Below, in pieces: positions 37,801 through 64,000 of a stretch of DNA of 64,000 nucleotides. The number at the start of each line of letters is the position of its first letter. Within the stretch, counting starts at the first letter, position 1. The DNA is from Owenia fusiformis (taxonomy: Eukaryota > Annelida > Polychaeta > Sabellida > Oweniidae), in contig CAIIXF020000009.1 in NCBI GenBank assembly GCA_903813345.2, positions 14,336,347-14,400,346 of the forward strand, in the 5' to 3' direction. Position numbers and translations under genes: made by a program. Below the pieces are notes generated by a model that ran no database searches, had not been told where the DNA came from, and was given only the letters and a program-made list of their open reading frames with translations.

Positions 37801-40800
37801 CAGATTAATTGTCAGCAACCTCAAAAATTGTTTCATTTTTGAAACCTTATCTTTACACTAGAAGTCCCAAACAATTGTGCATGAATTTAACGCTAAAACT
37901 GACAGATATATTGAATGGGCTTGTTTGATGCTTTTAAAAATCTATAGAATGCTTGGCAATAGAAGGATTGATCATTGAGTGGAATTCCTCCCTTGAAACA
38001 AAAATTAAGCGAGAGGGGACAACCTTTTTTCATAAAATTATTTTGTAAACTTTATTTTCTCTTCATGTTTTTTTTTTGTCTTAAATTCAAGCAATTTTAT
38101 GTTTTATTTCTGCATTTATTCATTTTTCAGATAATAAAATTCAGGCATTTCTGGTTCTTAAATCTTAAAATGACTTTCCCATTTCCCCATAATAGTCATG
38201 AATTCCTTTTATATCTTTGGATTAAGAGCATACTGTTTAGACTTTGACATTGCAACAGCAACCCTTCCATTGTTTTGCTTCACAGTGACAATTTTTTGTA
38301 TTTATGAACTCATAAAAATATGATTTATCAACAGAAGTAAAACTAAAAGGAAATGTAATATCTGGTTTAAGAAAAAATGTATCAGCTAAAAAACTACTCA
38401 GGTTACAATATTTGCAATTGCAAGTGTAGCGGTTATAATACAATTAATTTTAGCTGGCGACATTTCAGAGAAAGCAGCTTGGGTAGATATTGGTTTTAGG
38501 CTTTTACATATGTACATTTGCATATTATATTAGTGTATACTTTATAATAGTTATTGTGTTTTTCTAATATCACGGAGACCATTTCACCTCTCATTTATTT
38601 GTTTTCACAAAATGCAATATGAGTAAACATCATCTTATTTCAAATGAAAGGGTAAAAATAGCAACTTCAATAATGAGAAAAAAATTATTTGTTAACTAAA
38701 TAAAAGAAAACATTCAAACATATGTTTGTCTTGACATTATAAACAGATATGAATCACTATATTTACACCATCATTTCAAGCATTAAAAAACGAATAATAC
38801 TTCTGTTAAAAAAATTAAAAGAACATTTGCTTTTGCTATCCTTCCTTCTGGAAACCACAATTCAGATGTATGTGTGATCTACTTGGACACTATGTTCCAC
38901 TGTTAGGTATTGTAAAGCAGTGAAAAGATAATAACATGCCGTTTATGGTCTTTTCTCTGTGAAACAATTGCTTTTCATCCTAATGTTGCTATGGTAACAA
39001 ATCATAAAAGACATCAAGTGTCAAATACAGTTTTAAACTGGCTTACTACCTGTACTATAAAACATCAGTTTTAAATAAATGCCAAATCTTGTTTTTGATC
39101 AACTCCTCCACATATTTATACGGAAATGACATGCAATGCAACTGTCAGTGCTGAAACAATATTTTATATCAGAGATGATATTTTCTTTATGTGATGTCAT
39201 GCCACAATATACAAGATCATGTGCTGATATCATTGATTATTGTTTGGGTTCAGTTGATTTATATTACCCTGTCAGCCATCTACATCTAGAATAACAATCT
39301 TATAATATACAAGCTACATTACTTTGCTGATTCATGCTGTTATTTGTAAAATGAGATGAAAAAGAAGAAAATAATCAAAGAAGCTATGATGCTATGTAAC
39401 TGCTAATCATTAATGGTCGTAAAACTGAGGACAAAAATTCTTGAGAAACATGGCGAGGGATGCGAATAAGGCCATTACAGCTAAATGTGAATCACTGTAA
39501 ACAACTACTTGTAAGCCATCTTTCTTTATTAAAGGCAATTAAATGGTAGGAATCTCAAATAATCAGCTGACAAAATAGAATAAAATGTGTTGTTTTATTT
39601 TCAATTAAGCCTTTCGTGATTCACTCTTTACACACTACTATACCTAACACCTAGAAATGCATAAGATACTTTGTTTGTCTAATTGGATTGTTTAGTATAT
39701 TTTTGAAAGTACCTTATTAACATCTAACTTTCAACCGATAAACCATTCATAAGGAACAGACAAATAAAAACAAATACATAATCATTACTAATAAGCCAAA
39801 TGGGTTGCTCATGAAAGCCAAATGCAAGGTATAGTAGAGTGCTTTAATCACCAAGGTACGAAAATATGTACTTCAAAATGGGCCTCAAATAAGCCCTCAC
39901 AATGGACAAAATTTGAATGGTCAATATTTTTCAACAATACATTTCGCATAGCTATTTGCATGACCTGAAAGTTCTAAATCAAACTAATTGCACAATTTTG
40001 TTTTACACCCACACGCTAAATAAAACAATGACACCATCAGAACTATTGTTCTTTGTCATTGCTTTAATGGTCAGTATACCGAGTATAATCAAGAAAAGCT
40101 TTTACAATGAACAATAAAATTTGGAAAGGAGTATATAGATTTGCTTCCGGACACTGAGCTGATTGACTGAGATAATAGCTACGCGTCTCCTTTCGTCAAC
40201 TGCTCAGTTGTTTGTAGATTTTCAAAGTAACTAATAAATGCAATTTGAAGATGAGTACTTTAATTCTGTTGTTGCATCGATGTTGCAGTTTGGAGTGCGG
40301 TAAGATTGGAATGAAAGTGTTGAAAGTCGAATGAAATTATTTTTTCCAATATGACGACTGGTCAACTGATCACGTGACCCTTTCTTCTGGAATATTTTCT
40401 CACTTTTCAATCATCGTTTCCACCACGCTATGAATCAAAACAATGAAAAAATATCTGTTATATTAAGATTAATAGGAGATCAATCATTTCTGACAATTTT
40501 TTCTGTACTCCCTTACAGGGATATGAATGAATGTATCGATTGAAAAATAGGTGTGAAAATCCCAGGTATTTGAAATCAAGGAAGTATGAATTGGTTCCTT
40601 CGCGAACTGCATCATTGGAAATATTCTGACCTTATAAGGGAAATCTTTTGCGTCTCCTCTTTTGAAGAAGGAACAACGAATAGGACAATTATAACACCAG
40701 TGGAGTCTGAACCTAAACTACAATATCATCTAAGAATCTATTTCAGTAATAAAAGCAGTGGACTCTGAAGCTAAAATACATTATCATAAAATGGAATAAA

Positions 40801-63339: not shown

Positions 63340-64000
63340 TTAATTAGTTGCTTAAACGAGCATACATTACGCCAAAGTATAAAGTGTTTTTGGTTTAACA
63401 CTTACAGCATATTAGACTAGTTGGTTGAATGAACATACAATTGCCATAGTGTAGAGTGAGGGGTGTTTCTGGTTTAATACTTACAGCATATATGACTAGT
63501 GGATTGAATGAGCATACAATTGCCATAGTGTACAGTGAGGGGTGTTTCTGGTTTAATACTTACAGCATATATGACTAGTGGATTGAATGAGCATACAATT
63601 GCCATAGTGTAGAGTGAGGGGTGTTTCTGGTTTAATACTTACAGCATATATATGACTAGTGGATTGGATGAGCATACAATTGCCATAGTGTAGAGTGAGG
63701 GGTGTTTCTGGTTTAATACTTACAGCATATATATGACTAGTGGATTGAATGAGCATACAATTGCCATAGTGTAGAGTGAGGGGTGTTTCTGGTTTAACAC
63801 TTACAGCATATATGACTAGTGGATTGAATGAGCATACAATTGCCATAGTGTAGAGTGAGGGGTGTTTCTGTTTTAATACTAACAGCATATATGACTAATG
63901 GATTGAATGAGCATACAATTACCATAGTGTAGAGTGAGGGGTGTTTCTGTTTTAATACTAACAGCATATATGACTAGTGGATTGAATGAGCATACAATTG
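63340..64000 (-). repeat. GDE1: 79-81-bp tandem array of a GDE1 exon 3' end plus splice donor
   Basis: Units start (plus strand) at 63405, 63484, 63563, 63642, 63723, 63804, 63883 and 63962, with a very diverged copy before the first; the array runs off the window. On the minus strand each unit is 63 nt of coding-like sequence (KHPSLYTMAIVCSFNPLVIY plus A) and 16 nt starting with a donor, GTAAGTATTAAACCAG. LYxxxxVCSFxPxVIY is the GDE1 segment directly before the VRRADPD exon, in the right phase (0), so one unit is or derives from the real exon. Two 81-bp units carry an extra TA. The two rightmost visible donors are GTTAGT instead of GTAAGT. Confidence 0.88.

Follow-up and report, generated by a model that had tools for sequence, protein, structure and literature searches.

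Tandem arrays of short units that take in an exon edge look frequent in the genome of the annelid Owenia fusiformis. The arrays at splice donors and acceptors match the so-called mirages of amphioxus and a VNTR of human ABCA7, a kind of array that has already been described and is little studied, and we think it likely that they are minisatellites of the mirage type, arising by ordinary tandem duplication across the boundary and tolerated since the exon-proximal copy is intact. The window, by which we mean the whole stretch of 64,000 nucleotides that was analysed (contig CAIIXF020000009.1, positions 14,336,347 to 14,400,346; GC 33%), had been described in an earlier note as holding local duplications at five exon edges. 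All five are present: at a donor and at the stop codon of a GDE1-like gene, at a donor of a BAHCC1-like gene and, weakly, at two acceptor-side sites (Table 1).

Table 1. Exons, exon-edge arrays and comparison arrays in the window (window numbering).
Feature	Position	Strand	Basis
20-bp array, tied to no annotated exon (counter-example; exons in that part unannotated)	30741..30864	+	TRF
BAHCC1 acceptor-edge duplication, degenerate	40689..40862	+	Alignment score against shuffles and window segments
145-bp array in BAHCC1 intron, away from exon edges (counter-example)	47725..48303	+	TRF
19-bp exact copy	52956..53032	+	Intronic 52956-52974 identical to exonic 53014-53032
BAHCC1 exon E23 (numbering of this analysis), 3' end seeding the 24-bp array	54886..55647	+	Open in phase chain through 20 exons
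BAHCC1 24-bp donor-bearing array	55636..56012	+	TRF; outer limits by eye
GDE1 stop array, 26-bp unit	61702..61890	-	TRF 61746-61890; outer end read by eye
Last coding exon of GDE1	61864..61990	-	Exon placement; GDPD match of joined exons
GDE1 exon 3' of the 79-bp array	62424..62626	-	Exon placement
GDE1 79-bp array, in-window part	63384..64000	-	TRF, exon placement, copy-by-copy reading

The end of the GDE1-like gene lies on the minus strand of the window, and five of its exons, placed with the help of 9 kb of adjoining sequence (L001), match the Pfam family GDPD when joined (E 2.3e-30). The donor array of this gene comprises 41 copies between 63384 and 66646 in window numbering (C9:14399730-14402992; L001:1731-4993), most of them beyond the end of the window, which holds intronic copies only; the authentic exon copy, at 66579-66671, lies outside the window at the transcript 5' side of the array. 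The unit is made up of the last 65 nt of the upstream exon and 14 nt of intron with the donor. Its length is exactly 79 nt in 36 of the 41 copies, and the copies are 90-99% identical to the exon copy. The GT dinucleotide is intact in 38 copies, with GTAAGT in 27 and GTTAGT in 11, and is lost in three of the 40 intronic ones. Coding through the array is ruled out, as the unit length is not divisible by three, and frames that are open across it mostly stop within about two units, the longest one listed reaching 113 amino acids. When the 40 intronic copies are compared, variation is 0.020 in the columns derived from exon and 0.073 in those derived from intron. A lower value for the exon-derived columns is unexpected, as neither type of column should be coding, and the difference comes from few independent changes. 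A further array with a 66-bp unit and at least 6.2 copies (L001:8581-8998) is located upstream of the placed GDE1 exons and reaches the end of L001.

The second array of this gene consists of about seven copies, counted by eye down to its outer limit, the first of which contains the final codons and the stop (..AYITDTLK stop), with the others downstream of the stop. It spans the stop codon and downstream sequence in place of an exon-intron boundary, and thus follows the same principle as mirages but falls outside their definition. By the logic that applies to exon edges, the coding copy would stay first.

The gene on the plus strand, which we call BAHCC1 in keeping with the name given to it earlier, carries a BAH domain in its last exons (E 1e-14). 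We placed 39 of its edges, leaving exons before 40.8 kb out of the annotation, and all 20 placed exons are open in one consistent phase chain. The 24-bp array begins at the donor at 55648, and TRF delimits it in two blocks (55678-55903 and 55949-56001). At the acceptor at 40821 the exon edge is joined by two degenerate intronic copies, with an alignment score of 30 that was reached by none of 300 shuffles but by 50 of 1676 window segments. The exonic member of the 19-bp pair begins 10 nt inside an exon that starts at 53004, and its score was reached by none of 300 shuffles and by 31 of 1676 window segments. Both acceptor-side cases are real when measured against shuffles, are not rare for the window, and are weak. 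Part of the gene, introns included, also exists on another contig (L002; C10:31971500-31976500), matching window positions 42240-46710 in segments of 94.7% (42240-44340), 98.3% (45180-46419) and 97.7% (46580-46710) identity, with 44341-45179 absent; this is a fairly recent duplication at the DNA level. By eye, BAHCC1 introns also hold a long near-perfect inverted repeat flanking a T-run (49176-49300) and, at 51290-51890, inverted ends around about 600 bp that resemble a small non-autonomous transposon.

Copies of exon edges have a precedent in amphioxus, for which Canestro 2002 is said to be the original Adh paper. Mirages are known there from Adh3 and from the globin genes BflGb6 and BflGb9 (PMC3087553, PMC3902484), and PGBD5 and troponin C have been added to the list (PMC3902484). 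As these papers present them in the text available, mirages are minisatellite-like copies of exon/intron boundaries at the 5' or 3' side, with the authentic boundary at one end and AG or GT in many copies, and the arrays reported here are alike in these respects: they are tandem repeats of minisatellite length within a gene, and the unit crosses from exon into intron, one end of the array being the authentic boundary, for the GDE1 donor, the BAHCC1 donor at 55648 and a myosin locus described below (L034), and weakly so for the acceptor at 40821. Unit lengths are given as 10-160 bp for the amphioxus mirages; the two donor arrays of the window have units of 24 and 79 bp, and most others that we read have units of 17-65 bp. 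Mirages are further characterised by undisturbed splicing and by length and somatic instability; the present arrays are known from the sequence of one assembly. Amphioxus mirages were reported gene by gene, as far as the available text of those papers goes; here, many arrays were counted across a genome and set against a baseline matched by motif, and the array whose copies were counted has up to 41 of them.

The closest human case is the VNTR in intron 18 of ABCA7, which has a 25-bp unit, includes the splice donor and has been linked to exon skipping (PMC5954066). The GDE1 array likewise abuts the exon directly at its 3' end and its units carry the donor, with GT kept in 38 of 41 copies. According to the available description, the ABCA7 unit starts at the donor dinucleotide, whereas the units found here also contain exon sequence; the link to exon skipping belongs to the ABCA7 VNTR, the annelid arrays being read from DNA only. 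Tandem repeats at exon-intron boundaries that may form new introns have also been reported among internal repeats of human segmental-duplication paralogues (PMC2812944). Those are likewise minisatellites that may sit at an exon-intron boundary, although, in the portion of that paper available, roughly half of them fall within coding sequence and a comparison of recent paralogues brought them to light, while the copies described here lie in existing introns. Intron gain by tandem genomic duplication (PMC4974935) is alike in tying duplication to splice sites; here, existing introns gain copies and no new intron is shown. The accessible part of a report on intron minisatellites of an earthworm metallothionein gene (PMC12783039) makes no claim about exon edges. 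A literature search of open-access papers, mostly in the form of listings and thus no proof of absence, returned no genome-wide count of mirages and no mirages in another invertebrate.

In order to place the edge arrays of the window against its repeats in general, we used two measures. The first, coverage, is a strict yardstick that counts every array copy. In the window and L001 together, 3 of the 49 annotated edges show strong self-similarity (score 36), compared with 8.8% of positions; at score 25 the figures are 4 of 49 and 13.6%. In myosin loci, whose choice rested on protein family and was independent of repeats, none of the 31 placed edges is covered, compared with 7.5% of positions, so that overall 3 of 80 edges are covered and edges are not over-represented. 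By coverage, the number of edge arrays in the window is not above the window's own background. The second measure, births, counts one unit per array: by our reading 3 of 6 arrays in the window and L001 lie on an edge, against 0.25 expected for the 49 edges if arrays are placed by unit length, in a window that had been flagged for edge arrays.

The myosin loci contain 16 arrays in 84 kb, one of which lies on an exon edge. None of the 29 placed myosin edges considered for births lies in an array, with 0.25 expected for those 29 and a higher number for the full set of edges. Of the 60 myosin edges, 29 could not be placed, and overlapping loci were left out (four for births, two for the coverage background). 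The single edge array is a 41-bp array (L034, 173-338) on a previously unplaced donor, with a unit of 30 exon and 11 intron nucleotides. Its exon matches the myosin head only weakly, at profile positions 288-327 (E 0.003, under the curated cut-off), which fits the exon preceding the match at 399-466. Near other myosin exons, twelve separate Myosin_head matches follow one another in a row (C9:37986009-37994334; positions about 18-84), which, judging by the profile matches, suggests that one muscle-myosin exon is present as a large cluster of alternative copies.

For a view beyond these loci, the genome was searched for patterns of three exact donor 9-mers in a row. Raw counts against the backwards motif are uneven: CAGGTAAGT tripled gave 76 matches in 9 arrays against 56 in 8 arrays at gaps of 10-40, and 157 matches against 60 at gaps of 41-71; CAGGTGAGT tripled gave 112 against 12 and AAGGTAAGT tripled 56 against 53, with 20,044 against 23,062 for single MAGGTRAGT. 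As such counts are uninformative alone, we used a baseline of motif-matched single sites. The 5' flanks were read for 38 arrays, a lower bound, as at least 38 donor-motif arrays exist and some sets come only from the matches listed; one array found in two motif lists (L003) was counted once. Arrays, and single sites of the same motif family, were judged by one and the same exon scorer, which combines codon log-odds with an acceptor matrix. With a threshold of 10, 22 of the 23 known donors, on which the scorer had been trained, are retained; 8 of the window's 95 other GTRAG sites also pass, and some of these could be genuine exons. One set of 40 single sites was reduced to 29 distinct sites by dropping 11 further copies of two repeat families.

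The earlier note had proposed testing whether arrays coincide with splice sites beyond expectation, and in the version run here the donor arrays do begin on exon 3' ends more often than single sites: 21 of 38 against 16 of 69 at threshold 10 (Fisher p 0.001, odds ratio 4.1), 23 against 21 at threshold 8 (p 0.002), and 14 against 14 at threshold 12 (p 0.05). Keeping all 40 sites of the reduced set gives 21/38 against 16/80 (p 0.0002), and the other set alone, from the first 2.6 Mb of contig C1, gives 21/38 against 10/40 (p 0.006). Peptides upstream match Pfam at E 1e-3 or better for 12/38 arrays and 6/69 single sites (p 0.003), or 9/38 and 5/69 above the curated cut-off (p 0.02). These scans covered 29 of the 38 array peptides as picked by the scorer plus one picked by eye, and 35 of the 69 single-site peptides, the rest being too short or not open. 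A thirteenth array match, PP2A-B56 (L009), had its peptide picked by eye and was left out of the 12; a DUF282 match to a repeat peptide (L053) was also left out (13/38 with it), and the six single-site matches include one reverse-transcriptase fragment (L072). The matched array exons belong to unrelated families, amongst them BTB, C2, Rieske, UDP-glucose dehydrogenase, I-set, NIF phosphatase, Caprin, kinase and kringle. By eye, a recognisable exon stands at the start of 7 of the first 9 arrays. In 20 cases judged exonic the unit can be divided into 6-50 nt of exon and a remainder of intron, though several offsets span two or more units and three cases with an exon part of 6-7 nt hardly exceed the donor motif.

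Acceptor-side arrays were found in the same manner, TTTTCAGG tripled giving 197 matches against 33 for the backwards motif. Among the matches listed, the 3' flank was read for 30 arrays, of which 3 pass the scorer at threshold 10 and 7 at threshold 8. Seven arrays picked by eye were put to Pfam, and for five of them (L141, L147, L149, L152, L163) a matched exon follows the last copy (7tm_3, TMEM144, HMA, Nic96 and PTP); of the other two, one has a VWA match too weak to count (E 0.087) and one has none. This set excludes copies of one repeat family of contig C3 and the already counted L004; the single-site baseline covers the donor motifs.

The GDE1 donor array shows the geometry in question: the authentic exon edge forms one end of the array, and the remaining copies are intronic. 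In the origin that we consider likely, a tandem duplication would cover the final nucleotides of an exon, from a few up to about 65, or else its first ones, together with the splice site and adjoining intron, and the array would then multiply by slippage or unequal exchange, end joining being another candidate. With the exon body on one side, such an array could grow only into the intron or past the stop codon. Since the outermost copy would stay the real exon edge, with splicing presumably correct at the first donor, the gene would keep working and the array would be tolerated. The same geometry, an intact exon and splice site at the exon side with further copies in the intron, would by itself make the array begin on the boundary. 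Exon edges would be affected because the genome makes many arrays in genes, and a mechanism that seeks out edges would be unnecessary. Two results sit uneasily with this origin: the donor-array excess (21/38 against 16/69) is larger than random placement gives if arrays are equally common in and between genes, and 3 of 6 arrays in the window and L001 lie on an edge where 0.25 were expected for 49 edges, the window having been flagged for this very feature.

The same two results speak for exon edges, donors above all, as preferred birthplaces of arrays, for instance because slippage or end joining is guided by short shared AG/GT-like motifs, or because breaks are linked to transcription, and the Pfam counts agree with them. 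We nevertheless regard this preference as rather unlikely. Intergenic DNA is present among the comparison sites, and array density seems higher in gene regions: of the 541-nt segments, 33 of 250 from myosin loci and the window carry an array, compared with 2 of 48 from non-exonic single sites (p 0.09). This comparison leaves out five single-site segments scoring 8 to 10 and four overlapping myosin loci, and density varies much (28/138 myosin, 5/112 window; 1/16 exonic single-site). Such a difference in density could account for an odds ratio of about 4. In addition, the excess is weak at threshold 12, no placed myosin edge lies in an array, only 1 of 16 myosin arrays sits on a donor, an unplaced one, and coverage takes in 3 of 80 edges. 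The proposed enrichment thus appears at donor arrays but is inseparable from an excess of arrays in gene regions and has no counterpart in coverage (3/49; 0/31 for myosin). A special affinity for exon edges is not established: genic and intergenic sites are pooled in the comparison, genes may be richer in arrays, and coverage shows no excess.

Selection for redundant splice donors or regulated splicing, which the earlier note had raised and for which the prevalence of GTAAGT and the less variable exon-derived columns in the GDE1 array could be cited, is very improbable and finds no support in that array, the single one examined column by column: GT is lost in 3 of 40 intronic copies, 11 copies carry GTTAGT, and use of the next copy would shift the frame (79 = 3 x 26 + 1). 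An assembly artefact, for which tandem arrays are a common place, is hardly credible, given that the copies differ from each other (90-99% identity to the GDE1 exon copy) and that dozens of arrays with unrelated units lie on many contigs.

A single spreading repeat is ruled out. In genome searches, all 41 matches listed for the GDE1 unit, with the best candidates scored, lie at its own locus, the BAHCC1 array is its own sole match among those listed for window positions 55600-56000, and units elsewhere look unrelated. The earlier view of separate local events of one kind with unrelated units is borne out.

In amphioxus, mirages have been proposed, in the text available of gene-by-gene reports, as a route to new introns. 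With dozens of mirage arrays that have unrelated units and a real exon edge at one end, this route becomes testable by counting, and the genome-wide donor-array signal is worth a test against annotation. GDE1, with up to 41 near-identical exon ends in a row, is a natural construct for how the spliceosome picks the first donor, and gene predictors may call false exons in arrays of this type. It is a rather unlikely but more far-reaching reading that splice donors are true hot spots of minisatellite birth in this lineage, several-fold above matched intron, in which case mirages would be a general process in this genome, one that would time and again provide ready-made splice sites from which introns could be gained and exons altered outside cephalochordates.
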